Of a stretch of 64,000 nt of DNA, positions 475 to 32,810 are shown in pieces; position 1 is the stretch's first letter, and the number at the start of each line of letters is the position of its first letter. The stretch comes from Paraburkholderia youngii (GTDB lineage: Bacteria; Pseudomonadota; Gammaproteobacteria; Burkholderiales; Burkholderiaceae). The stretch lies in the NCBI RefSeq assembly GCF_013366925.1, contig NZ_JAALDK010000003.1, positions 310,001 through 374,000 on the forward strand. The letters are read 5' to 3'. The notes below the pieces were generated by a model. The model was not told where the DNA came from and ran no database searches. It worked only from the letters and a program-made list of their open reading frames with translations. A program made the position numbers and the translations under genes.

Positions 475-564
475 ATTTTCAAAACGCTTCACCGACAGTG
501 AGACGCCCGAAGACGCGGTCGTATGCCAGCTTCGCGGGGCCGAACGCCATCAAGGGACCACAAA

Positions 565-1653: not shown

Positions 1654-1712
1654 CTACACCTCGCGTCGGGGTGCAGCCGACAAGCACAGGAAGCCGCAAA
1701 AGAAAAGCAACC

Positions 1713-3569: not shown

Positions 3570-3623
3570 CCCCACCAGGCCGCCACAGCGCCTGCGCTCG
3601 CCGGCGCCGCGCGGCAGGAAAGG

Positions 3624-4337: not shown

Positions 4338-4344
4338 GGTTGCA

Positions 4345-5770: not shown

Positions 5771-5778
5771 TCGTGTCC

Positions 5779-6633: not shown

Positions 6634-6635
6634 CG

Positions 6636-8407: not shown

Positions 8408-8460
8408 GCACAAGGATCGAGACAAGGCCCCGAATACTTGAGCTGAATGGAAGCCAAGGT

Positions 8461-8808
8461 ATGCATGAAGTAAGTCTGGCCGGCGGCGTGCTTGCGTTGG
8501 TCGAAGCGGCAGCCGAGCGTGAGAACTTTGTCCGCGTGAAGGTGCTGAGGCTTGAAGTCGGACGCCTCGCTGGCGTCGATGTCGAGACGCTGCGCTTCGC
8601 CCTCGAAGCGATCGCGCCCGGCACCTGCCTTTGCGGCGCACGCGTCGAGATCGACGAACCTTCGGGAAGCGCGTGGTGCATGAACTGCAACGCGACCGTG
8701 GCGCTGGCCACGCGGGGCGCCCCCTGCGCGCACTGCGGCGGTTACTGGCTTCAGCCGAACGGCGGCACAGAGTTGCGCATCGTCGATCTGATCGTCGACG
8801 ATGCCTGA
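8461..8808 (+). CDS. hypA: Hydrogenase nickel incorporation protein HypA
   Basis: Nickel metallochaperone that works with HypB to load Ni into the large subunit. The start gives M-H-E-V-S, so the nickel ligands His2 and Glu3 are in place. The structural zinc site is CMNC followed 14 residues later by CAHC. 115 aa, typical length. First of the six hyp genes at the 3-prime part of the operon; 31 bases separate it from hypB. Confidence 0.95.
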
Positions 8809-8839
8809 CAATCATCGGATTAGCGCAAGGAGAAGCAAC

Positions 8840-9820: not shown

Positions 9821-10992
9821 CGGCGCGTGTGCAGAACCTACCCCATACCCTCGGCGAACAGACGGTGCTCGCCACCGGCGCATGGCTGAAGAACGCTGCG
9901 TGCCTGTGCATCGGCGGCGACGTTCACTGGTCGATGCTACACGGCGATCTCGACGATCCGGAGCACTGTGTGGCGCTCGACACATCGGTGGCGGCGCTTG
10001 TTGAGAGCGCCGAGCGCGCGGGGCAGCCCGTGCGCATGATCGCGCACGATCTGCATCCCGACTTCTACAGCACGCGCGTCGCGCTCGAATTGGGTGAGCG
10101 GCTTGGCGTGCCGACCGTCGGCGTCCAGCATCATCACGCGCATATTGGCGCGGTTGCGGCCGAGCATGGGCTGCGCGAGCCCGTGATCGGCCTCGCGCTC
10201 GACGGCGTGGGCTTCGGCACGGACGGCGCCGCATGGGGCGGTGAGCTGCTGGAGGTGGCGCCCGCCTGCTGGCGGCGCCTCGGCAGTCTCACGCCACTCG
10301 CGCTACCCGGCGGCGACGTCGCGGCGCGCGAGCCTTGGCGAATGGCCGCCGCCGCCCTGCACGCGCTCGGGCGCAGCGGCGAAATCGGGCCGCGACTCTC
10401 GGCCGCCGTGGGGGCGACCGCGGCGCGCACGGTCGGCGTCATGCTCGCGCGCAGCCTCAATTGCCCGCCTAGCACCGGTGCGGGTCGCTGGTTCGATGCG
10501 GCGGCGGGACTGCTCGGCGTGTGCCTGCGCCAGCGCGCCGAATCCGAGGCGGCCATCGCGCTCGAAAGGCTCGCGAGCGGCTACCTCGTCGCGCACGAGG
10601 CCCCCGATGTGGCGGGCCTGTGGCGCATCGCGGACAACGGCGAGCTCGACCTTCGTCCGCTCCTCGTCAAGTTGCTCATGCTCGCGGACTCCGGCGAAGC
10701 CGCGTGCGGCGCGGCCGTCTTTCATGTTGCGCTAGCCAAGGCGCTCGCCCAATGGGCCGCGCTTGCCGCGCAGGGGCGCGCCGTTCTGTTTGGCGGCGGC
10801 TGCTTTGCTAACCGGCTGCTCACTGCGCATATACGGGAGTCGCTCGCCGCGCACGGCGTGCGCACCCTCATGCCCGACACGGTGCCCTGCGGCGACGCCG
10901 GGCTAGCGCTTGGCCAGGCTTGGGTTGCCGCATATGGTCCGCAGATGTTGTCCATGCCTACGACCGCAAGAGGAGTCAGTCCATGTGTCTAG
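9817..10992 (+). CDS. hypF: Carbamoyltransferase HypF, short form
   Basis: Makes the cyanide ligands of the active-site iron from carbamoyl phosphate together with HypE. Only the C-terminal Kae1-like part is present (391 aa): [15 protein letters not shown] is the metal-binding motif and [12 protein letters not shown] the nucleotide-binding one, followed by [11 protein letters not shown]. The N-terminal acylphosphatase, zinc-finger and YrdC domains of the usual 750-aa HypF are absent. Truncated HypF1 of this type is known from the Cupriavidus MBH operon and is reported functional there. The ATG overlaps the hypB stop. Confidence 0.92.
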
Positions 10993-11240
10993 CCATGCCG
11001 GCACAGCTCATCGACCGGTCCGACGCCGAAACGGGCGTCGTCGAGCTCGGGGGCGTTCGAAAGACGGTCTCACTCGCGCTCGTACCCGACGTGCGCCTAG
11101 GGGACTTCGTGATCGTGCATGTCGGCTTCGCGCTTGGCATGATCGATCCCGAAGAGGCCGAGCGCACGCTCGCGCTGTTCAGCGAGGTCGCTCGGTCGCT
11201 TGGCGACACACCCATCGTCCAGTCGGGAACGGCGCAATGA
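10983..11240 (+). CDS. hypC: Hydrogenase assembly chaperone HypC
   Basis: Small chaperone that with HypD carries the Fe(CN)2CO group to the large subunit. It starts MCLAMPAQL, giving the essential Cys2; GDFVIVHVGFAL is the family core and DPEEAERTL the C-terminal helix. 85 aa. The first 10 bases overlap the end of hypF in another frame and its stop overlaps hypD as ATGA. Distinct from hupF, the second member of the family in this operon. Confidence 0.95.
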   Translation: MCLAMPAQLIDRSDAETGVVELGGVRKTVSLALVPDVRLGDFVIVHVGFALGMIDPEEAERTLALFSEVARSLGDTPIVQSGTAQ

Positions 11241-12373
11241 AGTACGTCGACGAATTCCGCGACGACGAACTCGCCGCGCGCATTGCTGGGCGCATTCAGG
11301 CGGAGACGCTGACCGAACGCCGCTATCACTTCATGGAGTTCTGCGGCGGTCACACGCACGCCATTTCCCGCTTCGGCGTGGCCGATCTTCTACCCGGTAA
11401 CGTGTTGATGATCCACGGTCCCGGCTGCCCAGTTTGCGTGTTGCCGATCGGGCGCATCGATCTCGCGATTCGCCTCGCGCTCGAACACGACGTGATCCTC
11501 TGCACGTATGGCGACACGATACGCGTGCCTGCCTCGTGCGGTCTATCGCTCCAGCGGGCCAAGGCGCGCGGGGCGGACATCCGCCTTGTGTATTCTCCGC
11601 ACGACGCGCTGCGCATCGCGCGCGAGCATCCGGAACGCGAGGTCGTCTTTTTTGCAATCGGCTTCGAGACCACTGCGCCGCCTACCGCGCTCGTCGTGAG
11701 TGAAGCCGCAGACTGCGGCGCGGAGAACTTTAGCGTGCTGTGCTGCCATGTACTCACGCCCGCGGCGATGACACATCTGCTCGCCGAGCCGTCCGCCGAC
11801 GCGAACCCGGTGCTGCTCGACGGCTTTGTCGGTCCCGCGCACGTGAGTGTTGTGATCGGCTCGGCGTCTTACGAGGCGTTCGCGCAGAGGTATCGCAAGC
11901 CGGTCGTGATTGCCGGGTTCGAGCCGCTCGACGTGCTGCAGGCGATCCTCATGCTGGTGCGTCAAGTCAACGATGGTCGCGCGGAGGTCGAGAACGAGTT
12001 CACGCGCGCTGTCACACGCGCGGGCAACGCCGCCGCGCAGGCGCTCATACAGGAGGTGTTCGAAACGCGGGAGTCGTTCGAGTGGCGCGGCCTAGGCGAG
12101 GTCCCATTGAGCGGGCTGCGCATTCGCCCGAAGTACGCGCGCTACGACGCCGAGGTCCGCTATGAACTCGTCTACCGGCCGGTCGCCGATCACCTCAAAT
12201 GCGAGTGCGGGGCGATCCTGCGAGGTCTAAAACACCCGCGCGACTGCACAATGTTCGGCACGGTCTGCACGCCCGAGAATCCCATGGGCTCGTGCATGGT
12301 GTCCAGCGAAGGCTCTTGCGCCGCGCACTATTCCTATGGTCGCTCGAAGGACATTCGAGTCGTCGAAGCATGA
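11237..12373 (+). CDS. hypD: Hydrogenase maturation protein HypD
   Basis: Fe-S scaffold on which cyanide and CO are attached to iron. Conserved blocks are all present: FMEFCGGHTHA (iron-binding cysteine), GPGCPVCVLP, FFAIGFETTAP, GFVGPAHVS and, near the C-terminus, cysteines in CECGAILRG, CTMFGTVCTPENPMGSCMVS and EGSCAAHYSYG for the [4Fe-4S] cluster. 378 aa. The ATG at 11237 is preferred over a much longer open frame because it matches the family start and overlaps the hypC stop. Confidence 0.96.
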   Translation: MKYVDEFRDDELAARIAGRIQAETLTERRYHFMEFCGGHTHAISRFGVADLLPGNVLMIHGPGCPVCVLPIGRIDLAIRLALEHDVILCTYGDTIRVPASCGLSLQRAKARGADIRLVYSPHDALRIAREHPEREVVFFAIGFETTAPPTALVVSEAADCGAENFSVLCCHVLTPAAMTHLLAEPSADANPVLLDGFVGPAHVSVVIGSASYEAFAQRYRKPVVIAGFEPLDVLQAILMLVRQVNDGRAEVENEFTRAVTRAGNAAAQALIQEVFETRESFEWRGLGEVPLSGLRIRPKYARYDAEVRYELVYRPVADHLKCECGAILRGLKHPRDCTMFGTVCTPENPMGSCMVSSEGSCAAHYSYGRSKDIRVVEA

Positions 12374-13446
12374 GCCCAGTCCACACATCCCCGGTGAAGC
12401 CCGCCTACGTGCGGCCCCTAGACTTTCGCGACGGCCGCATCGACATGGGCCACGGAGCGGGTGGCCGCGCATCGGCACAATTGACCCGCGAGCTGTTCGT
12501 CGCGAGCTTCGATAACGAATGGCTGCGCCAAGGCAACGACCAGGCCACCTTCGCGCATCTCGCGCCCGGGCCCGGCGAGCGCATCGTGATGACCACCGAC
12601 GCGCACGTCGTCTCGCCGCTTTTCTTTCCCGGCGGCGACATCGGCAGCCTCGCCGTGCACGGCACCGTCAACGACATCGCGATGGCGGGCGCACGGCCTT
12701 CGTATCTCAGCGCGAGCTTCATCCTGGAGGAGGGCCTCCCGATGGCGGATCTGCTCCGCATCGTCGAGTCAATGGCTGCTGCGTCGCGCGCTTGCAGCGC
12801 TCCGATCGTGACGGGCGACACTAAGGTCGTCGAGCGCGGCAAGGGCGATGCCGTGTTCATCACCACGACCGGGATCGGCGTCGTGCCCTCGGGCATTCAC
12901 ATTGATGGCGCGCAGGCGCGGCCCGGCGACGTTGTGCTGCTCTCGGGCACTATCGGCGAGCACGGCGTGGCGATCATGTCGCAACGCGAGGGCCTGGGCT
13001 TCGACACGGAGATCCGCTCGGACAGCGCCGCACTACACACGCTCGTGGCGGACATGGTTGCCGTCGCGCCCGGTGTGCGCGTTCTGCGCGACCCGACTCG
13101 CGGCGGACTGGCCACGACCCTCAACGAGATCGCCAGCCAGTCGGGTGTCGGGATGCACATTCAGGAGCGCGCAATTCCCGTGCTGCCGCAAGTCGATGCG
13201 GCGTGTGAGCTGCTCGGCCTCGATCCGCTTTATGTCGCCAACGAAGGCAAGCTAGTTGCAATCTGCGCAAGCGCCGACGCGCCGCAACTGCTCGCCGCGA
13301 TGCGCGCACATCCGTTGGGCGCGGCGGCGGTTTGCATTGGTGAGGTGGTCGAGGACGCCCACAGCTTCGTGCAGATCGAAACGAAATTCGGCGGACGGCG
13401 CATCGTCGACTGGCTTTCGGGCGAGCAACTGCCGCGGATCTGCTGA
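12370..13446 (+). CDS. hypE: Hydrogenase maturation protein HypE
   Basis: PurM-like enzyme that dehydrates the carbamoyl group on its own C-terminal cysteine to thiocyanate. The ending PRIC is intact and the N-terminal GHGAGGRASAQL, VVSPLFFPGGDIG, VTGDTKVVERG and RDPTRGGLATTLNE blocks are present. 358 aa. Last gene of the operon: no hypX, hoxA or regulatory hydrogenase gene follows, unlike the Cupriavidus cluster. Confidence 0.96.
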   Translation: MSPVHTSPVKPAYVRPLDFRDGRIDMGHGAGGRASAQLTRELFVASFDNEWLRQGNDQATFAHLAPGPGERIVMTTDAHVVSPLFFPGGDIGSLAVHGTVNDIAMAGARPSYLSASFILEEGLPMADLLRIVESMAAASRACSAPIVTGDTKVVERGKGDAVFITTTGIGVVPSGIHIDGAQARPGDVVLLSGTIGEHGVAIMSQREGLGFDTEIRSDSAALHTLVADMVAVAPGVRVLRDPTRGGLATTLNEIASQSGVGMHIQERAIPVLPQVDAACELLGLDPLYVANEGKLVAICASADAPQLLAAMRAHPLGAAAVCIGEVVEDAHSFVQIETKFGGRRIVDWLSGEQLPRIC

Positions 13447-14324
13447 TCCGTTTGCGGCGATAGGTATCGGGAGACTGAGAATGCTTTTTGATCGTCAGGT
13501 CGCTAGTCGCGTTGCCTTCGCGGGAGCTTTGAATGATCCATCCCCTTACCGCATCGATCAAGCAATGAGGTCTCCAGTCCCGCCCTCGCTGCAGCAGCCG
13601 TCGACCGCGCTCGTGGTCGAGCCTACGCTACATTCACCCTCTATTACGAGGAATGCTTTCCAATTCATTGTTGCCTGAGCGCTTTATCAGCAGCGGACTG
13701 TACCCGCCTCTCCTGGCCGGACAATCTCGCCTAACGTCAATGCCCCGCCCAACGGAAAGCTTCTTCATCGGCTCGACGAACGAACATTCACGCCGCCCGA
13801 GGGGACCCATCAGGACGCGAAGGCGGACTGTTCGAATACTTGGATGACCGCAGTCATCGCCATTCCTCAATTTGTTTTGTCTCCCGAAAGAAGTTTTCTC
13901 GGGATGGTTTCAAAGCTCAGCAGGCCACGGATGCGGTTGCATAACTCAGATCGGCGAGAACGAAAATTCGCACACGCGCGGCGTGACAAGTTGGCCGCTG
14001 GCAAAATCGCGCGAATGAATCTTATTGCACCTATGACGACAATATTTTCAGAAAATCCTTACCATCCAGCCCGTGTTGTCAACGAGTAGACTGTACCAAC
14101 CGAACGCTGCGAGTCGTCACGGTTAATTTAGCTTGGGAGAGACACCTATCTGGGTTGTCGGATAGAGATGCACTATCTTCCCGAATGATTGACCTGATTT
14201 ATCGTACCGTGCTGCCAATAGATAGCCTTTCGCCCTGTAACCGCCTAACGAAGCCGACACAGGGTTTATATCTTGCGTGCCGAGAAAAGGGCAGCGTATT
14301 TGGCCTGTTCGACGGAGCAAATCA
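13447..14324. other. Gap after hydrogenase operon, no gene recognised
   Basis: Open frames here are short and lack family motifs. A weak hairpin (TCCCGA 13882-13887 with TCGGGA 13899-13904) is the only terminator-like element noticed and lies 440 bases past hypE. Codon bias differs from the hup operon and the region looks like decayed DNA. Confidence 0.4.
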
Positions 14325-15893: not shown

Positions 15894-16964
15894 ATGAAAA
15901 CAACTGACCGCAAAGGGTATCCGACTGATGTGTCGGATGAGGAATGGAGTTTCGCGGCGCCGTATCTGACGCTGATGGACGTTGACGCGCCCCAGCGCAA
16001 ATACGAACTGCGCGACATGTTTGATGCATTGCGCTGGATGGCTCGTGCCGGCGCGCCGTGGAGGATGCTGCCCAATGATTTCCCGCCGTGGGAGCTGGTG
16101 TATCAGCAGACTCAACGCTGGTTGCAGGCTGGCTGCTTTGAGAGCATGGTGAGTGACCTGCGCTCGGTGATACGCGTGGCACAGGGCCGTCGGGGACAGC
16201 CCAGCGCGGTCATCCTCGATGGCCGCACGATACAGTCGACCTGCGAGAGCGGCCCGCGTGCGGGTTATGACGGTTATAAGCGCAAGCGCGGTAGTAAGGT
16301 ACATATTGCAGCAGACACGCTGGGACAGTTGCTGGCGGTGCACGTGACCCCAGCCAATGAACAGGAGCGCGCACAGGTAGCGGAGCTTGCGCGGCAGGTC
16401 CAGCAGGTAACGGGACGAACGGTCAAGGTGGCATTTGCCGATCAGGGATACACGGGCAAAGAGCCAGCGCAGGCTGCGTTCGACGAGGGCATTGACCTTC
16501 AGGTGATCAAACTCGAAGAAACGAAAAAGGGTTTCGTTCTGCTCCCCCGCCGGTGGGTGGTCGAGCGCAGCTTTGGCTGGCTCAACCGTTTCCGGCGTCT
16601 CGCACGTGACTATGAACGGCTCCCCGAAACTCTCGCTGGGCTTCATTTCGTCTTCGCAATGCTCATGCTTGTCCACGCCGTGTCAGTACTTCGTAAGCGT
16701 CATTCCGTGGCCGCATGGACAGAGCTGATGCCGGTGTCCAAAGTGATGCCCGTTACTTCAAGTGATGGGGACTACTTTGGACACACGGAATGCGCGATCA
16801 TCGAACCGCAAGGGCCGACCGAATTACACACCAGAGTACCGACGGCAAGTTGCCGTCGCGGCGTGCGAGCCGGGTATTTCGGTGGCCAAGCTCGCGCAGG
16901 CGCACGGACTGAATCCGAATATGGTGTTCAAGTGGCGCCGGCAACTGCGGGCGGGCCTGTTTGA
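15894..16964 (+). pseudogene. IS5-family transposase with C-terminus replaced by IS66 insertion
   Basis: DDE transposase starting MKTTDRKGYPTDVSDEEW, with LDGRT, FADQGYTG and VVERSFGWLNR motifs intact. Joining the sequence on either side of the IS66 shows that the original protein ended in S-V-L-Q-S-S. The insertion removed only the last three residues and fused about 90 foreign ones encoded by the IS66 left end. It may therefore retain some activity, but the element can no longer move as a simple IS. Confidence 0.85.
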
Positions 16965-17196
16965 AGGGGTGGCGCCCAGCACAGCGGTGTTGCTGCCCGT
17001 AGCGTTACCCGATGCACCGACCGGCGAGACCGCAGAACCGGCGTCGCTCGCTCTAGAGCCTGTCGAGCCACATCGCGAGAGCGTACCGGCGGCGTCGGGC
17101 ATCGAGATCGAACTGAACGGTGCCCGTGTACGCGTCACGGGCATGGTCGACCCCGTGCAGTTGCGCCTCGTGCTGCGCTGCCTGATGCCAGCATGA
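16765..17196 (+). CDS. tnpA: IS66 TnpA, helix-turn-helix protein
   Basis: 143-aa IS66 accessory protein. YTPEYRRQVAVAACEPGIS followed by VAKLAQAHGLNPNMVFKWRR forms the helix-turn-helix thought to bind the element ends. The C-terminal IELNGARVRVTG block is typical. GTG at 16762 is an alternative start. The stop overlaps tnpB as ATGA. Confidence 0.9.
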   Translation: MGTTLDTRNARSSNRKGRPNYTPEYRRQVAVAACEPGISVAKLAQAHGLNPNMVFKWRRQLRAGLFEGVAPSTAVLLPVALPDAPTGETAEPASLALEPVEPHRESVPAASGIEIELNGARVRVTGMVDPVQLRLVLRCLMPA

Positions 17197-17540
17197 TTGC
17201 GCCGCCAGGCGGTACCCGCGTATGGCTGGCAGCGGGCGTTACCGATATGCGCCGTGGCATGGATGGACTTGCCGCGCTGGTGCAGTCAGCACTCGGTCGT
17301 GATCCGTTCTCGGGGCACATCTTCCTGTTTCGCGGGCGTCGTGGTGACCTCATCAAGATTTTATGGTGGAGCGGCGACGGCATGAACCTGTACGCGAAAC
17401 GACTCGAGCGTGGACGCTTCGTGTGGCCGCAGGCGGACTCGGGAACAGTCCATCTGTCAGCCGCCCAACTGTCGATGCTGCTCGAAGGGATTGACTGGCG
17501 GCATCCCGAGCGGACGTGGCAGCCGACGCACGCGGCATAA
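17193..17540 (+). CDS. tnpB: IS66 TnpB (Orf2)
   Basis: 115-aa IS66 Orf2 protein with the conserved WLAAGVTDMRRGMDGLAALV start and the LIKILWWSGDGMNLYAKRLERG core. It is needed with TnpA and TnpC for transposition of IS66 elements, but its biochemical role is not established. Translationally coupled to tnpA; 51 bases before tnpC. Confidence 0.92.
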   Translation: MIAPPGGTRVWLAAGVTDMRRGMDGLAALVQSALGRDPFSGHIFLFRGRRGDLIKILWWSGDGMNLYAKRLERGRFVWPQADSGTVHLSAAQLSMLLEGIDWRHPERTWQPTHAA

Positions 17541-17591
17541 GGCAGGGTGCGGGAGCCCACAGGCGCGTGGCCTTCATTTACACTGTCATGC

Positions 17592-19136
17592 ATGCCAGCC
17601 AGCCATCTGCCCGATGACATCGCCGCTCTGAAGCGCATCGTTGCCTCGCGCGACGAGACCATCGCGCAGTTGCTGGCCGAGATCTCGCGACTGAAGCGAT
17701 GGCAGTATGGCCGCTCATCTGAGCGCATGACAGAACTGATGGACCAGCTGCAGCTCGCGCTCGGTGAGCTGCCTGTTCATGAACCAGATATGGCCGCACC
17801 GGCGAAGGCGCCTGATGCCGACGCGACTGCGGATACGTCGGCCACTACGAACCTTGTCCCACTGCGCCGCAAGTCACGGCACTTCCCTGCCCATCTTCCT
17901 CGCGAAACAGTTGTGCATGCGCCGTCAAACTGCGGATGCCCGGAATGCGGCAAACAGATGCGTGCGCTGGGCGAAGACGTCTCGGAGGTGCTCGACTATG
18001 TGCCCGGCTACTTCAAGGTACTGCGTCACGTACGTCCGAAGCTGAGCTGCCCGCGCTGTGCCGCAGTAGTACAGGAGCCGGCACCTTCGCGGCCGATAGC
18101 ACGCTCGATGGCGGGTGCGGGGCTGCTCGCACAGGTCGTCGTCGCGAAGTACGCTGACCATATGCCGCTATATCGGCAGGCCGGCATCTATCGCCGTGCG
18201 GGCATCGAACTGGACCGGGCAACACTGGCTTCGTGGGTGCGTGAAGCGGCTGCCCTGCTGCAACCCCTGTCCGACGCACTCGGTGGTTACGTGCGCGCCG
18301 CAGACAAGATCCATACCGACGACACGCCCGTGCCGGTGCTGGAGCCGGGGCGTGGCAAGACACGCACGGCGCGCCTGTGGACCTATGTGCGCGATGACCG
18401 CCCGGCAGGAAGCCACGCGCCACCAGCCGTCTGGTACAGGTACTCACCCGACCGCAAAGGTGAGCGACCTCGGGAACATCTGGCGGGCTACACGGGAATC
18501 CTGCAGGCAGATGCCTTCAGCGGGTACGACGCGCTGTATCGTGACGGCACGGTCATCGAGGCCGGGTGCTGGGCGCATGCGCGGCGCAAGTTCTATGACC
18601 TGTACAAGCTGGACAGCTCACCAATTGCCGAGGAAGCACTGCGCCGAATTGGGGCGCTGTATGCCGTTGAACGCGAGGTTCGAGGCCAGACGCCGGACGT
18701 GCGCCTGTCTGCGCGTCAGCTGCGCTCGGCCCCATTGCTCGCTGATCTGAAGGCCTGGTACGAACACACGCTGTCACAGGTATCGGCGAAGTCGGGGCTG
18801 GCGAAGGCGATTAAGTACTCGCTGGGGCACTGGCATGCGCTCACACGCTATTGCGAAGACGGGCGCGTCGAGGTGGACAACAATACGGCGGAGCGCGCGA
18901 TCAGGCCGCTGGTTCTCGGCAGGCGCAACTATCTGTTCGCTGGCTCCGACGGCGGTGGCCAAAGCGCGGCGGTGATCTATAGCCTGATCGGTACGGCACG
19001 CCTGAACGGCATCGAGCCGTTTGCCTACCTGCGCACGGTGTTTGAGCGCATCGCCGATCATCCCATCAACCGCATCGACGAGTTGCTGCCGTGGCGCCTG
19101 AAGCCGGCTGCATACATCGAGCAGCAAGCCGCCTGA
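17592..19136 (+). CDS. tnpC: IS66 transposase TnpC
   Basis: 514-aa DDE transposase. It has an N-terminal coiled coil (IVASRDETIAQLLAEISRL), a zinc-binding region (CGCPECGKQ, CPRC), the catalytic aspartates in HTDDTPVPV and QADAFSGYDALY, and the glutamate in NNTAERAIRPLVLGRRNYL. ATG 17592 gives MPASHLPDDIAALK; the longer GTG-initiated frame from 17547 is less likely. Appears complete. Confidence 0.93.
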   Translation: MPASHLPDDIAALKRIVASRDETIAQLLAEISRLKRWQYGRSSERMTELMDQLQLALGELPVHEPDMAAPAKAPDADATADTSATTNLVPLRRKSRHFPAHLPRETVVHAPSNCGCPECGKQMRALGEDVSEVLDYVPGYFKVLRHVRPKLSCPRCAAVVQEPAPSRPIARSMAGAGLLAQVVVAKYADHMPLYRQAGIYRRAGIELDRATLASWVREAAALLQPLSDALGGYVRAADKIHTDDTPVPVLEPGRGKTRTARLWTYVRDDRPAGSHAPPAVWYRYSPDRKGERPREHLAGYTGILQADAFSGYDALYRDGTVIEAGCWAHARRKFYDLYKLDSSPIAEEALRRIGALYAVEREVRGQTPDVRLSARQLRSAPLLADLKAWYEHTLSQVSAKSGLAKAIKYSLGHWHALTRYCEDGRVEVDNNTAERAIRPLVLGRRNYLFAGSDGGGQSAAVIYSLIGTARLNGIEPFAYLRTVFERIADHPINRIDELLPWRLKPAAYIEQQAA

Positions 19137-19147
19137 CAATCAATCCG

Positions 19148-19744
19148 ATGGTCCAACCCCGCAAACCTGCCGTGCGCCTGGTCAAGGCGCCAGTGCCCGA
19201 CTACGTACTGCGCGTTGAGCTGAAGTACATCAAGCCGGCGATCTGGCGACGAATCATCGTTCCCGGCTCGATCCGGCTGGGCAAGCTGCATGTCGTGCTG
19301 CAACTAGCCATGGGCTGGGAGGGCGGGCACCTGCACGAGTTCGTCTTCGGCGAAACCAACTATGGTGAACCTGATGACTTCGGATTCCAGAGCGATCCAC
19401 CGATGCTCAATGAAGCACGGGTCACGCTGGCGAAGGCGCTGGGCGGGCTGAAGTCATTCACCTACATCTACGACTACGGTGACAACTGGCAGCATCGGAT
19501 CAAGGTCGAGAAGGCGCTGATGCCTGATCCAGACATGCGCCGGCCGCTGTGCCTGGACGGGCAGAATGCGTGTCCACCGGAAGATGTCGGTGGAGTGCCA
19601 GGATATGCCGACTTCCTCGAAGCGATCACCGATCCGACGCACGAGGAGCACGACCACTTCCTCGAGTGGTGTGGCGGCAACTTCGATCCCGCCGCCTTCG
19701 ATCTCGTGCTCACGAATCAGCGGCTCTCAGAGGTCAAGTTCTGA
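19148..19744 (+). CDS. Plasmid pRiA4b ORF-3 family protein, IS66 passenger
   Basis: 198-aa protein of the pRiA4b ORF-3 family, recognised from YVLRVELKYIKPAIWRRI, the HLHEFVFG block and FTYIYDYGDNWQHRI. Function is unknown; members often sit next to IS66 transposases. It begins 11 bases after tnpC and ends 30 bases inside the right inverted repeat, so it moves with the element. Confidence 0.88.
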   Translation: MVQPRKPAVRLVKAPVPDYVLRVELKYIKPAIWRRIIVPGSIRLGKLHVVLQLAMGWEGGHLHEFVFGETNYGEPDDFGFQSDPPMLNEARVTLAKALGGLKSFTYIYDYGDNWQHRIKVEKALMPDPDMRRPLCLDGQNACPPEDVGGVPGYADFLEAITDPTHEEHDHFLEWCGGNFDPAAFDLVLTNQRLSEVKF

Positions 19745-19802
19745 TCGTCAAGACGGCCTCAGATTGACGCTTACAGTACTTCAAAGTTCCTAACACGCTC
19801 TA

Positions 19803-24012: not shown

Positions 24013-24867
24013 TCAACTCTCCTGCGTTATGCTGCCAGAGTTGGCTTTGGACCAGCGAGTTTGTTCAAACGGAAACATAAAGTAGTCGCGCACGGTGAGG
24101 GGCTCGGGCTGATTGCGAAGGCCCACTTCAGGCCATTCGTCCCGTTTCGGCCAGTATGCCGTGCTGAAGATCGTGTCCCAGATGGTCGTAAAGAACCCAT
24201 AGTTCCGGTGCCGGTGATGGGGCTGAGTTGAGTGATGAATTCGGTGAAACTGACCGTCTCCGATGATATATCGCAGAGGCCCAAGGTTGATGCGCGTGCT
24301 GGAGTGTGAGAGGTGCGCCTGAAAGGTAATGAGTGTCATGGCAGCAGCCGGCACCACGCCAGACTCGAAGTGGATCAGCGCGAGCGGTAATGCTACAAAC
24401 AAGGCATAGATAACCGGCTCGGAAATGTGATGATTGCAATTCCACGCTGTCAGTTCGCGGATCGAGTGATGTGTAGCGTGCAAGCGCCACAGGAATGGCA
24501 CGGCGTGCTGTGCTCGGTGCATCCAGTAGTAAAAGAAGTCACCGGCAATTGCGACCAAAACGCCTGAAAGGATGGCGAAAGCCGTCTTGATAACTGCGTT
24601 GTCAGAGTGAAACACTGTTGAAAGATTGACCGTCAGGAGCGGCTTGACGCCTAACCATTGCAAGCCCACAGCGTACAAGTGCCAGATTAGCGCGCCGCAT
24701 CCAATCCGAATCGTCCAGTTCCTTGCGCCGCGAAGGTACGATGCAACGCTGTATCGATAAGCCGGAAAGGCGATCTCAAGAGATGCACATAACGTGGCAA
24801 AAATCGCAAGCAGTTTGAACGATTGGACGGCGAACTGGACCATCTGGTGGATATCGACAGCATTCAT
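24013..24867 (-). CDS. Fatty acid hydroxylase / sterol desaturase family protein, copy 2
   Basis: 284-aa paralogue of the gene at 14325 in opposite orientation, with the same HRAQH, HATHH and HRIHH clusters. Within the shared core the two proteins differ at only about three positions, two of them A/T in AQHxVPF and I/T in WDTxFST. The N-terminus (MNAVDIHQMVQFAVQ) and C-terminus (EQTRWSKANSGSITQES) are different. GGAG precedes the ATG at 24867. Substrate unknown. Confidence 0.86.
   Translation of the reverse strand: MNAVDIHQMVQFAVQSFKLLAIFATLCASLEIAFPAYRYSVASYLRGARNWTIRIGCGALIWHLYAVGLQWLGVKPLLTVNLSTVFHSDNAVIKTAFAILSGVLVAIAGDFFYYWMHRAQHAVPFLWRLHATHHSIRELTAWNCNHHISEPVIYALFVALPLALIHFESGVVPAAAMTLITFQAHLSHSSTRINLGPLRYIIGDGQFHRIHHSTQPHHRHRNYGFFTTIWDTIFSTAYWPKRDEWPEVGLRNQPEPLTVRDYFMFPFEQTRWSKANSGSITQES
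24065..24769. repeat. Inverted repeat, right copy (705 bp)
   Basis: Gap-free reverse-complement match to 14423-15127. The boundaries fall inside both hydroxylase genes. Confidence 0.85.
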
Positions 24868-25686: not shown

Positions 25687-26335
25687 TCAAGCCTTAGGGG
25701 CTGACTTGGGTTCGTAAAAGGTGCCATCGCGCAGCATGGCGAACAGGACATCACAGCGTCGCCGTGCCAGCGCGATGAGTGCCTGGTTATGTCGCTTGCC
25801 GTGCTGGACCTTCCGTGCGTAATACGCTCGCGAATCGGGGGGTCTCGCAAGGCCGCGAAGGCGATAGGAACAAGGCTCGCTTGAGTACCTTGTTGCCGCG
25901 CTTGGACGGATGCTCGCCACGGATAGATGAGCCTGAGCGCCGGGTAACTGGTGCGAGGCCAGCGTAGGCCGCCAGGTGACCTGCCGAAGCGAAGGCTTTG
26001 TGCGCGACCTCGGTGAGGAGTCTGGCGGCGGTCCTGACGCCGACTCCCCGGCATGCTGGTCAGGACCGGCCAAAGAGGGTGAGCAAGCCCAGCCGCTCTA
26101 CTTCGGCGGCGATTTCGTCGCGCTGCTTGCGTAAGGCGGCGAGCTGCCGAGCCAGGCGCGGCATGGCGATGGTGGCGGCTTGCGTGCCGGGCACCGTCAC
26201 GGCGCTGCTCGCCCAGCGCTTGAACGATTCCGGCTGCCAATCCCTTGCCCATGCGTGGCGCGAGCTTGGTCAGGCGGTTGGCAAGCGTCTTCTCGCTGGT
26301 TGCTGCAAGCGCGGCTGGAGACGGGTAGCGCTCGA
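25687..26335 (-). pseudogene. IS110-a transposase, C-terminal half
   Basis: Minus-strand fragments in at least two frames: GKGLAAGIVQALGEQRRD near the junction, then ACRGVGVRTAARLL and GHLAAYAGLAPVTR-like sequence, and finally RHNQALIALARRRCDVLFAM. These are IS110 C-terminal motifs, including the helix-hairpin-helix region before the transposase_20 domain. Frameshifts make it nonfunctional. Confidence 0.78.
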
Positions 26336-26419
26336 GTAGATCGGTAAGCGCCCGGTTATCCCATCTTGAGTTGCGTTGAGAGTCTTGGGAGCATCGTGTC
26401 CACTTAAATAGGTGGACAC

Positions 26420-26812
26420 GTGAACACTATTGACGAAGCAGCGGCAGCAGGCCGTCGTCGCCGCCGGCGCTACAGCGTCGAGTTCAAGGCTCAGGTTGTG
26501 GCAACTTGCCAGGGGCCCGGGGTGTCGCTCGCGGCGATCGCGTTGCACCACAAGCTGAACGCCAATCTGCTTCGACGTTGGGTCGAGCAGGCCGAAACGA
26601 ACGATTGCGTGCTCGTGGCGCGTAGCGACCTGGCAGCGCCATTGGCAGCGGCGCCAGCACCGGAATTTGTACCAGTGCCACTTGAGACGCGAAACACGCG
26701 TACAACTGAGATTCGCGTCGAGGTTCGTCGCGCGGAGCAGTCGATCACGGTTAGCTGGCCAACCTCGGAGGCAGCGCAATGCGCCGCCTGGTTGCGCGAG
26801 TGGCTCGCATGA
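26420..26812 (+). CDS. tnpA: IS66 TnpA of element 2
   Basis: 130-aa helix-turn-helix protein (RYSVEFKAQVVATCQGPG, then LAAIALHHKLNANLLRRWV). The start is GTG with AGGTGG seven bases upstream. Divergent from the tnpA at 16765, so the two IS66 elements are different types. The stop overlaps tnpB as ATGA. Confidence 0.87.
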   Translation: MNTIDEAAAAGRRRRRRYSVEFKAQVVATCQGPGVSLAAIALHHKLNANLLRRWVEQAETNDCVLVARSDLAAPLAAAPAPEFVPVPLETRNTRTTEIRVEVRRAEQSITVSWPTSEAAQCAAWLREWLA

Positions 26813-27147
26813 TCCGCATTGACCAGGTGTGGCTGGCAGTTGACCCGCTGGACATGCGGGCCGGCTTCGATACGGCACTGGGTCGGGTGATAACCGTGTT
26901 CGGCGCCGCGCATCCGCACCATGCGTACCTGTTCGCCAACCGGCGGGCCAACCGTCTGAAGGTGCTGGTACACGATGGGATTGACATCTGGCTGGCAGCG
27001 CGACGGCTGAATCAGGGGCAGTTCACCTGGCCGCACGCTGGTAGCGAGCCAAAGCAACGCGCGCTCACACAGGAACAACTGGCCGCTCTGGTGGTGGGTT
27101 TGCCATGGCAGCGCATCGGCGCGGACGGTGTAATCCGTGTCGTTTGA
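26809..27147 (+). CDS. tnpB: IS66 TnpB of element 2
   Basis: 112-aa IS66 Orf2 protein: WLAVDPLDMRAGFDTALG at the start and NRLKVLVHDGIDIWLAARRLNQG in the core. Intact and coupled to tnpA. Followed by 63 bases and a disrupted tnpC. Confidence 0.88.
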   Translation: MIRIDQVWLAVDPLDMRAGFDTALGRVITVFGAAHPHHAYLFANRRANRLKVLVHDGIDIWLAARRLNQGQFTWPHAGSEPKQRALTQEQLAALVVGLPWQRIGADGVIRVV

Positions 27148-27210
27148 AGATGCCAGGGACGTAAACGGTCGCGCTTTCGCGCTCTCCGGGGTTCTGGCAG
27201 ACTCGTCTGC

Positions 27211-28558
27211 ATGAACTTGCCAGCCGACCTCAACGCTCTTAGCCCGGAACAGCTGCGTGCGCTCGCCACACAACTGATTGCGCGCGTCGAGGACCGGGAC
27301 AGGGAGATTGAGGAGAAGACCCGGGAGGTCGGCGAAGGATCGGGAGCTGCGCTACCGGCAGGCAGACCCGCATCGACCAGTTGACCCACGAGATATCGAT
27401 TCTCAGGCGCCATCAGTTTGGTAGGCGCAGCGAGCAGCTCAGCAGCGATCAGATGAATCTGCTGGATGAGGCGATTGACGCGGATCTCGCCGCCATTGAA
27501 GTTGAACTCGAGCAACTTCAGCCGCAAGCCACAGCCGAGCCGCTACCCCAGCAACCGAAGCGTGCAGCGCTGCCGGCGCAATTGCCGCGCACAGAGATTC
27601 GCCACGAGCCGCAGAGCACCGTATGCCAGTGTGGCTGCGAGCGCACGCGCATCGGCGAGGACATCAGCGAGAAGCTCGACTACACACCGGGCGTGTTCAC
27701 CGTGGAGCGGCATGTCCGTGGCAAGTGGGTGTGCAGAAACTGCGAAACACGGATTCAGGCCGCGGTGCCTGCGCACGTCATCGACAAGGGCATTCCGACT
27801 GCGGGACTGCTGGCCTCAGTGCTCGTTGCCAAATACGCTGACCACCTTCCCCTGTATCGTCAGGAGCAGATCTTTGCGCGGGCGGACGTCGCGATACCGC
27901 GCTCGACATTGGGCGCATGGGTCGGTACGTGCGGCGTGCAACTACAACCGCTGCTCGACGCGCTGCATGAGGAAATCCTGCAGCAGGGTGTGCTGCACGC
28001 GGATGAGACGCCGGTACAGATGCTCAGTCCCGGCAAAGGCAAGACACATCGCGCGTATCTATGGGCGTATACGCCGACGCACTACTGCGAGCTGCGCGCC
28101 GTGGTCTACGACTTCGCCGACAGCCGTGCAGGCGAACATGCCCGCGCGTTCCTCGCTGGCTGGCAGGGCAAACTGGTATGCGACGACTACAGTGGATACA
28201 AGGCTGGATTCCAGCAGGGCATCACTGAAATTGGATGTGCTGCGCACGCGAGACGCAAGTTCTTCGATCTGCACGCCAATCACAGCAGTCAGATCGCTGC
28301 GCAGGCGCTGCCGTTCTTCGCTGCGCTTTACGACATCGAGCGCGACGCTGCAGTGCTACAAGCCGAGGAACGCCACAAGCTTCGACAGAGTCGGGCCAAG
28401 CCGGTCTGCGACGCACTTCACGAATGGATGAAGGCGCAGCGCAAGCTGGTGTCGGAAGGTTCGGCGATTGCCAAAGCGCTGGATTACAGTCTTAAACGAT
28501 GGGATGCGCTGACCCGCTATCTCGATGACGGTCACGTGCCTATACACAACAACTGGGT
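27211..28558 (+). pseudogene. tnpC: IS66 TnpC of element 2, 5-prime part, frameshifted
   Basis: Begins MNLPADLNALSPEQLRALA at 27211 and soon leaves frame. Compared with the expected RDREIEEKTREV-AKDRELRYRQTRIDQLTHEIS there is one extra base near 27334 and four near 27357. The frame from about 27366 is then good through HADETPVQM and DDYSGYKAGF to IHNNW at 28557, where the RIT element interrupts it. The remaining residues are at 31981-32215. Confidence 0.87.
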
Positions 28559-28586
28559 TCATGCCGCTAGCGGCATGAACCCAGTT
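28551..28586. repeat. 36-bp perfect palindrome at left end of RIT
   Basis: The sequence from AACTGGGTTC to GAACCCAGTT reads identically on both strands, centred on GCTAGC. The outer AACTGGGT on the left is tnpC coding sequence and also the target-side sequence repeated at the right end (31973-31980). The inner half merges into the RIT terminal repeat. Confidence 0.9.
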
Positions 28587-28613
28587 ATGCCGACTTCCCG
28601 ATTATGCCGCGTC
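28579..28613. repeat. RIT terminal inverted repeat, left
   Basis: Starts ACCCAGTTATGCCGACTTCC and ends GCCGCGTC. Exact reverse complement of 31946-31980. Contains two copies of TTATGCCG that may be recombinase binding sites. Confidence 0.9.
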
Positions 28614-28713
28614 GTGCACCTGTATGACGGCGGGTATGGTCTTTCATGAATGCTGTGTCGGCATAAACGTATGATTTCTCAGGCTGGCTATCGCGCCGGC
28701 CAGGAGAGATCAG

Positions 28714-30105
28714 ATGAATGCGAAACGCACAGTCAGTGAATCCGGCGGGCTGCCGGTCCATCACATCGATGCATTTCTTGATCGTCTGCGGACGGCACAC
28801 TACTCCGAGGTATCGCTTCGCAAGAAACGAAGAGTCCTGTGTGCGTTCTCTGGGTGGATGGAGAACAGGGGCATCGACCTGATTGATCTTGATGAGTCTG
28901 TCACGGCTCGTTTTATGAAGCGCATGATCGGCGCATCACGAGACCGTGTCCAGCGTGCACGTCCCACATTACGGCAGTTTCTCGCCTATCTGCGCGCTGA
29001 AGCTATTGTGTGCCCGCCGACGTTGGGCCGCCAATCCGCGATCGCGCACATTTACGACCGATACGTGGACTATCTGAGGCAGGATCGTGGACTCGCGAGG
29101 AACTCTCTGCTCGTCTATGGCCCGTTCATTCGCGATTTTCTCGACAGCCACGCGGCCGGCGACGGAAGTTTATTGCCAGATGCATTTGACGCGGTAACGA
29201 TCCGGAATCATCTTCTTGCCCGCAGCAAAGGCCGATCGGCAGAGTACACGCGGCTGATGGCAGTTGCGCTTCGCTCGTTCTGCCATTTCCTCTTTCTGCG
29301 CGGCGATACGGCACGAGACCTGTATGAGTCAGTGCCTTCGGTTCGTAAATGGCGACAGTCAACTGTGCCAACGTTCCTCACGCCTGAGCAGCAAGAAGCT
29401 CTCATTGCATCGGCAGACCAGTCGACCACGACTGGGCTTCGTGACTACGCAATCCTGCTGTTGTTGGCGCGGCTTGGCTTACGTGCCGGAGAAATCGTCG
29501 CAATCGAGCTCGACGACATTCACTGGCGTTCGGGGGAACTCGTCGTTCATGGAAAGGGGCAGATGGTCGAGCACGTCCCGCTGCCATCGGAGGTCGGAGA
29601 AGCAATCGCAACATATCTCCGCGATGGTCGCGAAGCGAGTGCATCGCGGCGCGTCTTCCTTCGCAGATTGGCACCTCGGGTTGGTTTGGCGGGGCCGGGG
29701 GCGATTGGCAAGATTGTTGGTCAGGCCTTCGCACGTGCCGGTTTCCGCCCCGCGTGCCGTGGCGCCGCACATCTGTTCCGTCACGGTCTGGCGACGACGA
29801 TGATTCGTCATGGGGCCTCGATGGCAGAAATAGCCGAGGTCTTGCGACACCGCTCACCGGACAGTACCGCGATCTATGCAACGGTGGCGTTTGAGGACCT
29901 GCGCGAGGTCGCGCGCTCGTGGCCCACGGCTGGAGGTTCAATACGACTGCGATCCGCGATTCTCTCGCTCGGTACGTGGCGGTCCGCCGGGCTCTCGGGG
30001 CGTCATTCTACGAACCTGCATTGGCACTCGGCCATTTCGTTGATCTTCTCGAACATGAAGATGCTGAGTTCATTACTACCGATCTGGCTCTGCGCTGGGC
30101 AATGA
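28714..30105 (+). CDS. ritA: RIT tyrosine recombinase A
   Basis: First recombinase of the trio, 463 aa as read. The catalytic set is visible: Arg in RLGLRAGEI, Lys in HGKGQ, HLFRHGLA (HxxR), His in LRHRSPDS and Tyr in TAIYATV. N-terminal SAM-like core-binding segment at residues 20-110. Family members usually stop soon after the tyrosine; here the frame runs about 55 residues further than expected (from ARSWPTAGGS) and overlaps ritB by 187 bases, suggesting that the original stop was mutated. Confidence 0.88.
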   Translation: MNAKRTVSESGGLPVHHIDAFLDRLRTAHYSEVSLRKKRRVLCAFSGWMENRGIDLIDLDESVTARFMKRMIGASRDRVQRARPTLRQFLAYLRAEAIVCPPTLGRQSAIAHIYDRYVDYLRQDRGLARNSLLVYGPFIRDFLDSHAAGDGSLLPDAFDAVTIRNHLLARSKGRSAEYTRLMAVALRSFCHFLFLRGDTARDLYESVPSVRKWRQSTVPTFLTPEQQEALIASADQSTTTGLRDYAILLLLARLGLRAGEIVAIELDDIHWRSGELVVHGKGQMVEHVPLPSEVGEAIATYLRDGREASASRRVFLRRLAPRVGLAGPGAIGKIVGQAFARAGFRPACRGAAHLFRHGLATTMIRHGASMAEIAEVLRHRSPDSTAIYATVAFEDLREVARSWPTAGGSIRLRSAILSLGTWRSAGLSGRHSTNLHWHSAISLIFSNMKMLSSLLPIWLCAGQ

Positions 30106-30986
30106 CGCCCACACTCGTCGAACGTGCCACCTGGGGGCGACGCCTCTCTCAAGTAAGAGGATTCGCCAGATGGATGAACCTCATTGACGGTCGAAACCAG
30201 ATTCCCCCCGCGGGGCTCCTGAGTGCCCGCAGACGGCGCAATGCCCCGCATATTTACACTGAGCACGAAATTGATCTGCTTATGGCCCGAGCCGCTCAAC
30301 TGCGATCCCGAACCGGCTTGCGAGCACTGACCTATTCGACGCTCATTGGGCTTCTTGTGGCGACGGGTCTCAGGCCAGGCGAAGCGTTTCGGCTCGACCG
30401 GTCCGACGTTGACCTCGTCAGCGGAATACTCTCCATCCGGGAATCGAAGTTCGGCAAATCGCGCTGTGTTCCTGTAGCAGAGTCGACCCGGTTGGCACTC
30501 GAACACTACGTCCAGAAACGCGATCAAATCTGTCCTTTACGGTTGAGCGAGGCGTTCCTGGTTAGTGAGCGCGGCAAGCGACTGAAGCCCGGCACTGCAC
30601 GCAGCATGTTCGTCAGAATGTCGCGCGCTGTCGGTCTGCGACCGGCGACAGAGGATGGGCGCGATGGTTACGGTCCACGCCTCCAGGACTTCCGGCATAG
30701 CTTCGCGACTGGACGGCTGGTCGAGTGGTATCGTGCCGGTCTCGACGTAAGTAGGGAATTGCCGAAACTTACCGCCTACCTCGGGCATGTCAACGTCGGT
30801 CTTACGTACTGGTACATCGAAGCGGTTCCTGAATTGCTTGAACTTGCGGCAGCCTATCTCGACAAGAACTGTCCAGAGAACAGTCGTGAGCGCCGCCGAT
30901 CTTCCATCACTCGTTCAGCGCTTCTTTACCCAGCGCCTGCTCGAGCAGCAAGGTCTAAGTTCGCATACGGTGGCAAGTTACCGTGA
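29919..30986 (+). CDS. ritB: RIT tyrosine recombinase B
   Basis: Second recombinase, up to 355 aa. Catalytic Arg in VATGLRPGEAF, Lys in ESKFGKSR, DFRHSF (with Q in place of the usual first His of the HxxR box), LGHVNVG and Tyr in TYWYIEA. No ATG fits the start. GTG 29919 is open, but the ancestral start may have been at GGAGG-TTCA-ATACG near 29934-29947, where ATG now reads ATA. The C-terminus overlaps ritC by 101 bases. Confidence 0.83.
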   Translation: MAHGWRFNTTAIRDSLARYVAVRRALGASFYEPALALGHFVDLLEHEDAEFITTDLALRWAMTPTLVERATWGRRLSQVRGFARWMNLIDGRNQIPPAGLLSARRRRNAPHIYTEHEIDLLMARAAQLRSRTGLRALTYSTLIGLLVATGLRPGEAFRLDRSDVDLVSGILSIRESKFGKSRCVPVAESTRLALEHYVQKRDQICPLRLSEAFLVSERGKRLKPGTARSMFVRMSRAVGLRPATEDGRDGYGPRLQDFRHSFATGRLVEWYRAGLDVSRELPKLTAYLGHVNVGLTYWYIEAVPELLELAAAYLDKNCPENSRERRRSSITRSALLYPAPARAARSKFAYGGKLP

Positions 30987-31881
30987 TACGTTCCGGCTGC
31001 TGCTAGCGTTTGCCACGAACCATATCGGACGCGCGCCGTCAAAGCTGCGCATCGAGGACTTCGATGTGTCGTTGATCGAGGAATTCCTGCGGCACCTCGA
31101 ACACAGCAGAGGGAATTCGGTGCGGACACGCAACACGCGGCTTGCTGCCGTGCATGCCTTCTTCCGGTTCGTCGCGGTCAGCGAGCCTGCGCTGTTTCTG
31201 CAGTGTCAGCGCGTTCTTGCAATTCCATCTAAACGCTGCGAGCACGGCCCTGTTGAGTTTCTGACAGAGAGCGAGGCCGCCGCTCTGGTAGGGGCGCCTG
31301 ACGTACGAACGTGGACCGGCACCCGAGACCGAGCGCTGCTTCTTGTAGCGGTTCAAACGGGTCTGCGCAACAGCGAATTGACCACTCTCCGGCGCCAGGA
31401 TGTGATGCTCGGTACAGGCGCCCACGTCCGTTGCCTCGGCAAAGGCAGAAAGACGAGATGCACTCCTCTGCGACCGGATGTTGTTGCAGTCCTGAAGGAA
31501 TGGCTGCTCTATCAACCAGGCGAACCAGGTGATCCGGTCTTCCCCAGTTCGCGTGGTGGTCATCTCAGTGCCGACGCTCTTCAGCAACTCGTGTCGCGCA
31601 ACGCCGAAATCGCGCGTCTCTCGTGCCCCTCGCTGAAGAAAAAATCGATAACGCCTCACACGCTTCGGCACACGGCCGCGATGAGCCTGATGCATCACGG
31701 CGTCGACCTGACTGTGATCGCGCTCTGGCTCGGTCACGAATCCTCGGAAACGACTCAGATCTACTTGCACGCCGACATGCAACTCAAGGAACGCGCGCTC
31801 GCGCACGCCACGGCGAGCGGTGTCGCGCTGACCCGCTACAAACCACCAGATCCGTTACTCGCCTTCCTGGAGGCTCTCTGA
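30886..31881 (+). CDS. ritC: RIT tyrosine recombinase C
   Basis: Third recombinase, 331 aa, the most canonical of the three: Arg in QTGLRNSELT, Lys in LGKGRKTR, HTLRHTAAM, LGHESSETT and Tyr in QIYLHAD. The GTG at 30886 (V-S-A-A-D-L-P) is chosen over an upstream in-frame start because it begins at the expected core-binding domain. All three proteins are probably needed together for RIT mobility. Confidence 0.88.
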   Translation: MSAADLPSLVQRFFTQRLLEQQGLSSHTVASYRDTFRLLLAFATNHIGRAPSKLRIEDFDVSLIEEFLRHLEHSRGNSVRTRNTRLAAVHAFFRFVAVSEPALFLQCQRVLAIPSKRCEHGPVEFLTESEAAALVGAPDVRTWTGTRDRALLLVAVQTGLRNSELTTLRRQDVMLGTGAHVRCLGKGRKTRCTPLRPDVVAVLKEWLLYQPGEPGDPVFPSSRGGHLSADALQQLVSRNAEIARLSCPSLKKKSITPHTLRHTAAMSLMHHGVDLTVIALWLGHESSETTQIYLHADMQLKERALAHATASGVALTRYKPPDPLLAFLEAL

Positions 31882-31945
31882 TAATGCCGACACTCCAAGC
31901 GACAGGGAATAGAGATCCGCCCAACCGTTGTGCGCGTGGACTCAT

Positions 31946-31980
31946 GACGCGGCATAATCGGGAAGTCGGCATAACTGGGT
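31946..31980. repeat. RIT terminal inverted repeat, right
   Basis: Exact reverse complement of 28579-28613. Its outermost AACTGGGT is also the reading frame at which tnpC resumes. Confidence 0.9.
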
Positions 31981-32215
31981 CGAAAACCAGATACGACCTT
32001 GGGCCATCGGCAGGTCGAACTGGCTGTTTGCCGGTTCGCTTCGAGCCGGGCAGCGAGCCGCGGCCATCATGAGTCTGCTACGTTCAGCGCAACTGAATGG
32101 GCACGAACCACATGCCTATCTGAAGGACGTCCTGACGCGACTGCCAACCCACAAGGCCAGCGATATCTCAACATTGCTGCCTCATCGCTGGCAGCCGACG
32201 GATCCTATCCGCTAG
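31981..32215 (+). pseudogene. tnpC: IS66 TnpC of element 2, 3-prime part
   Basis: Continues tnpC after the RIT: VENQIRPWAIGRSNWLFAGS, which contains the catalytic glutamate, to the stop at 32213-32215. Together with 27211-28558 it accounts for a whole TnpC apart from the frameshifts. Confidence 0.9.
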
Positions 32216-32258
32216 TTCAATTCGTCAAGACGGGTTTGCCGGCCGCTTACGTAGATCG

Positions 32259-32810
32259 AGCACGGCGGGATGCTCGAGGCGCGGTCCGAGAACGCGCTCA
32301 AGCGCGGGATGGATCTGGGTGAGCAGGCCGCGAATCCCGTTACTGGTTTGGGTAATTTGAGCGGCGAGATCGTCGTCGAAGCCGCACAGCATGGTCAGCT
32401 CGGCGAGCGGTTCATCAGCTAACCGAAGCGAGCGCAGCGTATGCGGCATCGAACCGGCGGCCTCGGCGATGATTGCGGCGTCGCGGGCGTCTGTCTTGGC
32501 CTCACCGGCGTGCAGGTCGGCAATGCGGCGCATCGCCAGTCCGGGCAGATCGGCAAGCAGAACGCCTTCATCGCGTGCGACGGCCAGCGGCAATGCGCCG
32601 ATGGTGGCGGGCTGATCGACAACGAAGAGAAGACGGCCATGGGTCTTGAATTCGGCGATGAGGGCGCGCAGTTTGGCCTCGTCGTTGGAGAGCGCCTTGA
32701 TCTACAGGCGCTTGCCATTCCGAGCTAGTGCCACGGCGTGATGCTGGCCTTTACCGACGTCGACACCGATGAAGACTCGACGACGTCATGTTGTTGGAAT
32801 TCTTGCATCG
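32259..32810 (-). pseudogene. IS110-a transposase, N-terminal half
   Basis: Minus strand: FIGVDVGKGQHHAVALARNG is the RuvC-like DEDD start. An in-frame TAG follows at 32702-32704 (GKRL-stop-IKAL), then VVDQPATIGALPLAVARDEG and KTDARDAAIIAE. It breaks off at EHPAVLDL at the IS66 junction. The stop codon predates or accompanies decay of the element. Confidence 0.85.

Follow-up and report, generated by a model that had tools for sequence, protein, structure and literature searches.

Recombinase-trio elements (RITs), as described from Cupriavidus metallidurans CH34 (ritA1B1C1) and plasmid pHG1, consist of three adjacent tyrosine-recombinase genes and a terminal inverted repeat with an overlapping palindrome, together about 3.4 kb (PMC2864759, PMC3414803). 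Insertions in print concern single elements and lie in radC, in the transposase gene of a relative of Tn6049 and in an IS66-family tnpA (PMC2864759, PMC3414803), the last of which one RIT is reported to inactivate (PMC2864759). RitA, RitB and RitC are described as forming a subfamily each, with two CB domains in RitA and an extra C-terminal helix in RitC (PMC8138268). In their passages on RITs, the published accounts treat insertions one by one, with no fixed target rule, 5-mer rule or lineage-to-target map (PMC2864759, PMC3414803), and Table 1 of a survey of tyrosine-recombinase elements from 2023 lists target specificity, empty site and movement alike as untested for RITs (PMC10214605). Here we analyse a RIT of the same construction in Paraburkholderia youngii, located in a stretch of 64,000 nucleotides (assembly GCF_013366925.1, contig NZ_JAALDK010000003.1, positions 310,001 to 374,000; hereafter the window), where it interrupts tnpC of an IS66 element that itself lies within an IS110 element. 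From comparison of its relatives, we consider it highly probable that this RIT, made of three tyrosine recombinases, terminal inverted repeats and a separate palindrome (P), integrates site-specifically into tnpC at AAC-5bp-NGA, between the codons for Asn-Asn and Glu.

Two other kinds of elements resemble RITs in part. SEs use tyrosine recombinases, possess intA, tfp, intB and srap, and carry a spacer of a few base pairs from site to site, one side of the new junction keeping the bases of the target (PMC10214605). The RIT studied here also has tyrosine recombinases and may exchange its spacer in a comparable way, but differs in the 5-bp length of the spacer, in P and in its use of both orientations. 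The four-gene set of SEs was not seen, as three recombinase frames fill the RIT and neither tfp nor srap was noticed, no search having been aimed at either. GInts likewise combine several tyrosine recombinases acting together with site specificity, but are described with four conserved genes and genomic-island cargo, whereas the RIT has three genes and no cargo (PMC5385486). Among the literature titles and abstract openings consulted, none stated that RIT lineages home to catalytic-motif DNA, and Ricker et al. 2013 may hold part of the target rule; the main text of PMC12306157 contained nothing on RITs.

The RIT adds a unit of positions 28559-31980 to tnpC. Its left border consists of the core AAC with the 5-mer TGGGT (28551-28558), where the target meets P, followed by P itself, a 20-bp palindrome TCATGCCGCTAGCGGCATGA (28559-28578), and by the left terminal repeat of 35 bp (28579-28613, plus strand), which matches the right one perfectly (31946-31980, minus strand); the right repeat ends with AAC and the 5-mer TGGGT (31973-31980). 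The preliminary description of this DNA had announced 35-bp perfect terminal repeats, which are indeed found at these positions, and had not mentioned the perfect 36-bp palindrome at 28551-28586. Both features agree with what is expected of a RIT (repeat of about 28-34 bp, plus palindrome), as do the three adjacent tyrosine recombinases in the same orientation, with short overlaps and PF00589 in each. These are, all on the plus strand, ritA (28714-30105), which overruns its usual stop (463 codons versus 410 in sister copy L136, whose rit frames are of usual size), ritB (29919-30986), frameshifted at its 3' end, and ritC (30787-31881), with an uncertain start. (C1 and C3 denote contigs of the host genome, L and G numbers the collected loci.) A further sister RIT at C3:845065-848495 (L137), with an early stop in ritA, lies in the opposite orientation within an IS66 that resembles the one interrupted here.

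In a first blast, plasmid RIT matches began just before the RIT end, and some were annotated beside IS66 genes. RIT loci were collected from the best 80 of 113 related stretches of GTDB, from seven plasmid regions, from genomes of the family and from the host genome itself; the family search covered 398 genomes, of which 64 had a match at E 1e-40 or better, and 60 stretches were taken, the weaker matches being left out. The pHG1 RIT beside an IS66 gene is one of these loci (L082). Close relatives were defined by a RitB about 70% identical or more, together with seven loci found via P. Motif and tblastn were applied to 60 distinct ends whose flank measures 40 nt or more, and 58 of them fall at one codon junction of tnpC, NN^xxE, across very different IS66 genes. 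Every P end (26/26) leads into the Asn-Asn codons, and 32 of the 34 other ends lead into x-x-E. Motif and tblastn together support 52 ends, tblastn alone two, motif alone four and neither of them two; without the loci obtained by a search pattern demanding part of the motif (five P ends), the junction still accounts for 53 of 55 ends. With intact TnpC as query, tblastn matches break mostly at residue 443-446 of 520 (extremes 432 and 449). Of the PF03050 matches in the host genome, five stop at profile position 259 and six begin at 256-257; 10 cross the junction, and one more crosses it in two frames. The glutamate beside the junction is presumably the catalytic one of the IS66 DDE triad.

Both ends could be parsed for 19 copies of the 20 loci tried (L049 was left unparsed in the 5-mer table), nine in forward and 10 in reverse orientation, and each of them is bordered by NN at one end and by E at the opposite end, with flanking tnpC genes of several subfamilies (WVENQ, VIERD, PCENS, AAERA). 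P, as TCATGCCGCTAGCGGCATGA or a variant, separates the RIT end from the NN side of the target. The pattern AAY-N5-P-N5-RTT occurs at 19 places in 12 of the 398 genomes, versus none for the reversed control, and each of these 12 genomes has a relative of RitB. At all 19 places the left-half motif of tnpC adjoins P on one side; on the opposite side, 17 of them have a RIT end (one base shorter in G184), and of the remaining two, one has an IS91-like end and one a further tnpC left half. In 10 of the 19 two-ended copies the P-side 5-mer is unlike the E-side one, as if imported; in L136, for example, TGGGT lies beside P and ATATG before ERDIRPF, and the P-side and E-side 5-mers are TGGGT and GTCAT in L008, CCGTG and GCGGC in L086. 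Compared with the 5-mer that separates P from the RIT end, the P-side one is likewise different in 10 of 19 copies. At the level of sequence, the comparison thereby establishes a single repeated tnpC junction, entered in both orientations, with P on the NN side, often with unlike 5-mers, and with a target tied to lineage (see below).

A reaction that would produce such junctions can be proposed. The recombinases would form a circle, in which the RIT end is joined to P through AAC-5bp; once this circle junction had recombined with an IS66 site, the Glu side would retain the native 5-mer and the carried one would lie beside P. Since P is bordered by a junction of the AAC-5bp type on each side, and the crossover could use either, both orientations of the RIT would be obtained. 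For the question of RIT mobility, the junction rule thus names a definite target and predicts both the circle junction and the product. The division of the site into two arms (RIT end and P) around a 5-bp spacer may also be of interest for studies of recombinase specificity.

Several observations weigh against this site-specific integration or limit its reach. The 60 ends are not 60 independent insertions, as both ends of a copy were counted and 10 of the 60 come from the host genome, and two ends (L019, L083) fit neither by motif nor by tblastn. Identical P-side and E-side 5-mers in nine of 19 copies are uninformative, and the P-side 5-mers of L084 and L085 look mosaic; the E-side 5-mer is taken as native from the reading of the subfamily and from one well-matched case (L141). 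In two alphaproteobacterial RITs (L076, L077), the IS66 NN-x-x-E site is used with P on the E side. The window copy itself carries lesions relative to two sister copies (loss of the ritA stop and a 1-nt frameshift late in ritB), and the RIT circle, the movement and the activity of the recombinases are predictions from sequence.

A natural counterpart of the proposed reaction may be present in the host genome. C3:264307 lacks a RIT and has P flanked by two tnpC left halves in inverted arrangement, and C3:639825-644642 lacks P and has an interrupted RIT flanked by two tnpC right halves. One of the left halves is 99.5% identical, and one of the right halves 99.7% identical, to the corresponding part of the intact copy L141; the 5-mer of the L141 site, TGGGT, is kept in the right half, and the left half has GACTG beside P. 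A crossover between a P|RIT junction and an unoccupied IS66 site, with the arms paired as they would be during integration, would yield these two products, and the pair, a single case, looks like the outcome of a natural reciprocal recombination. A simple excision scar is disfavoured for the P at C3:264307, which joins two tnpC left halves. Rather doubtful is an assembly error or a homologous recombination between IS66 or RIT copies, in which case the pair would be uninformative on the enzyme reaction: repeats of that length are hard to assemble and the RIT at C3:639825-644642 is itself interrupted, but both breaks fall exactly at AAC-5bp, parting P from the RIT end at a place that offers no long shared repeat.

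In the collection as a whole, 175 RitB-like copies were found in 152 of 158 loci, and for 73 loci the target could be labelled, the rest having unrecognised ends, a contig end, a repeat of another locus or an unidentified target; labels were given by the author's eye, not blind and sometimes from one end, and the automatic choice of frame erred in some loci. Besides the junction described above, two further IS66 sites are used (L161, L162 and L171; L191 and L194). ArdC-like genes are broken inside HExxH (e.g. L048, L054, L072) by RITs from four phyla, tyrosine recombinases at H-x-L-R^H (e.g. L177, L183, L185, L033) and an IS256 transposase at RC^W (L197; L190 is similar). In three of these target families the Pfam halves abut: MPTase-PolyVal at 52|53 (L072), Phage_integrase at 131|133 (L183) and Transposase_mut at 253|256 (L197). 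The target of L182 and L073 is presumably istA of IS21, a name given from a motif, with weak or no Pfam support. In L001, L003 and L062 a RIT is nested in another RIT, whose ritC is broken at GKGR^K. Among 51 distinct distant copies with recognised ends, a palindrome lies near exactly one end in 34, near both in none and near neither in 17, and control windows taken further out contain one in eight of 451 cases.

Mapped on a RitB tree of 72 rows (loci with unclear targets were left out, and L154 was dropped as too short), the eight target labels require 10 changes (minimum 7) versus a mean of 35.4 after shuffling, a value as low as 10 being reached in none of 200 shuffles; the target is thus tied to the RIT lineage. 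A clade of 29 rows (support 100/99), all at an IS66 site, includes Planctomycetota, Verrucomicrobiota, Acidobacteriota and Pseudomonadota. L076 branches outside this clade, the main one at IS66, as though adoption of the site had occurred on two occasions.

We lean towards a generalization of these results, without firm commitment: RITs would be a superfamily parasitizing mobile elements, in which other lineages have taken to different mobile genes and each is fixed on DNA that encodes a conserved motif, often a catalytic one (the Glu of IS66, HExxH of ArdC, H-x-L-R-H of tyrosine recombinases, GKGRK in RitC of other RITs, IS256, IS21). They would disable the gene on arrival and would move through an SE-like spacer exchange with P as a separate palindromic arm, which would permit either orientation and could drive large inversions. 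The DNA of a catalytic motif would be a good address because the need of the gene keeps it conserved, and RITs that home to such motifs would naturally restrain other mobile elements. What matters most, in our opinion, is this probable site-specific homing of RITs, fixed by lineage, to conserved motifs in the DNA of other mobile genes, with a mechanism that is in part inferred.

Conversely, the targets of distant RITs could be loose or mixed, and the impression of motifs an artefact of those junctions that were readable and labelled. The 73 labelled loci stand against the 175 copies mentioned above, and several junctions are readable with no target recognized (L059, L066, L166, L179, L189, L195, L198). 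The IS21 label does not cluster, its two changes being equalled in every one of 500 shuffles; three changes are required for the tyrosine-recombinase box label and two for the ArdC label, and two rows at the first IS66 site (L076, L186) are placed elsewhere in the tree, the break in L186 lying a few bases downstream. We nevertheless find this unlikely, since RITs of four phyla break ArdC genes within HExxH, Pfam halves abut in three target families and the one-ended palindrome is found in 34 of 51 distant copies versus eight of 451 control windows.

The location of the RIT in tnpC is not a chance hit, judging from the recurrence of close RITs at the same junction (58 of 60 distinct ends). Descent from one ancestral insertion in IS66, spread by IS66::RIT composites or by gene conversion between IS66 copies, would also give a junction common to all close RITs, and both elements reside on mobile replicons, but it is very improbable, as close RITs are flanked by several tnpC subfamilies in both orientations (which also disfavours composites) and as the window RIT is 99.85% identical over 3429 columns to that at C3:279411-282839, the IS66 flanks of the two (1000 and 262 bp) giving no blastn match at E 1e-3, so that it is presumably the RIT that moved rather than the IS66. 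Repeated site-specific integration of RITs at the tnpC junction is hence the explanation that we retain.

The outer layers form an ordinary IS66 element with an 8-bp target duplication inside a decayed IS110. The IS66 element occupies 26344-32250 (plus strand); its ends, GTAAGCGCCCGG... and, in reverse complement, GTAAGCGGCCGG..., have GTAAGCG-N-CCGG in common, and it is flanked on both sides by the duplication GTAGATCG (26336-26343 and 32251-32258), which had been announced as present twice and which is single in the uninterrupted IS110 of L136. Its frames, all on the plus strand, are a tnpA-like one (26420-26812), named by its position, plasmid relatives having an annotated transposase ORF before tnpB; a tnpB-like one (26779-27147), named by position and by similarity to the annotated tnpB of H21; the left part of tnpC (27213-28558), matched by tblastn with L141 TnpC up to ...HNN-W(V) and frameshifted between 27318 and 27360; and its right part (31973-32203), (N)WVENQIRPWA..., corresponding to residues 443-518 of 520. 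The IS110 transposase lies on the minus strand, as a frameshifted C-terminal piece that ends with the left GTAGATCG (25690-26343) and an N-terminal piece with one in-frame stop that starts with the right GTAGATCG (32251-32776); both were located by tblastn with the intact IS110 protein of L199.

The nesting of RIT (28559-31980), IS66 and IS110, with these boundaries, agrees with the preliminary description, and the empty sites, which it proposed to look for in other genomes, exist in the host genome itself. An uninterrupted IS110 copy is found at C3:286363-287826, where the 8 bp common to the two matches are a single GTAGATCG, and for the RIT, uninterrupted tnpC genes 68-73% identical are found in C3:25500-30500 and C1:2757000-2762000, where the matched parts overlap by exactly 8 bp. 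The same description had stated that removal of each layer restores the protein below it, and proposed end-to-end alignment with intact transposases as a check. Here the pieces were compared separately with relatives, no sequence being joined or excised; they align in succession, and the points of interruption are exact. By tblastn the TnpC halves abut on L141 (residues 46-444 and 443-518 of 520), as do the IS110 pieces on L199 (of 401 residues, the right piece covers 12-189 and the left piece begins at about 185). Restoration fails in so far as tnpC and IS110 are frameshifted, the latter with at least two frameshifts besides its in-frame stop, and the uninterrupted sister IS110 shows a similar out-of-frame pattern. 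Nor can the insertion order be read directly, as had been claimed, since nesting alone is compatible with a RIT-bearing IS66 entering IS110.

Domain searches assign the layers to the same families. In the search of the host genome, the tnpC halves of the window match PF03050 (DDE_Tnp_IS66) at profile positions 1-259 and 257-283, and Transposase_20 was found at C3:335868-336050 (window 25868-26050). The L199 reference, to which both IS110 pieces align, contains DEDD_Tnp_IS110 and Transposase_20, and the intact relatives match the family models NF033517 (L141, IS66) and NF033542 (L199, IS110). Thus, both outer layers of the window match intact relatives of known families, and both are damaged here beyond the insertions.

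In several loci, an element other than the RIT adjoins RIT ends or P (L083:1354-1382, L019, L163, L164, L165, L181, L222). Its end reads GTACTAAACCGC... or GTACTAAACCGCTGACGCGG..., it has its own tyrosine recombinase (an integrase domain was found), and it was read as IS91-like from its motif and set aside.

The nested elements are carried on a Paraburkholderia megaplasmid, the window being C3:310001-374000 of an 855-kb contig in a genome of 9.49 Mb in four contigs. Of 11 named genomes compared over a stretch of rpoB, Paraburkholderia tuberum (95%) and P. ferrariae (94%) come nearest to the host. They are bordered by a fatty-acid hydroxylase gene (24013-24867) and a cytochrome P450 gene (33161-34453). 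Elsewhere in the window, an uptake-hydrogenase gene cluster (504-13455) is 86% identical to a Cupriavidus taiwanensis plasmid, and a further IS66 element (16692-19783), with counterparts of 92-95% identity on plasmids of Burkholderia and Pandoraea, has a complete PF03050 match (18102-18962) and a junction site free of RIT.

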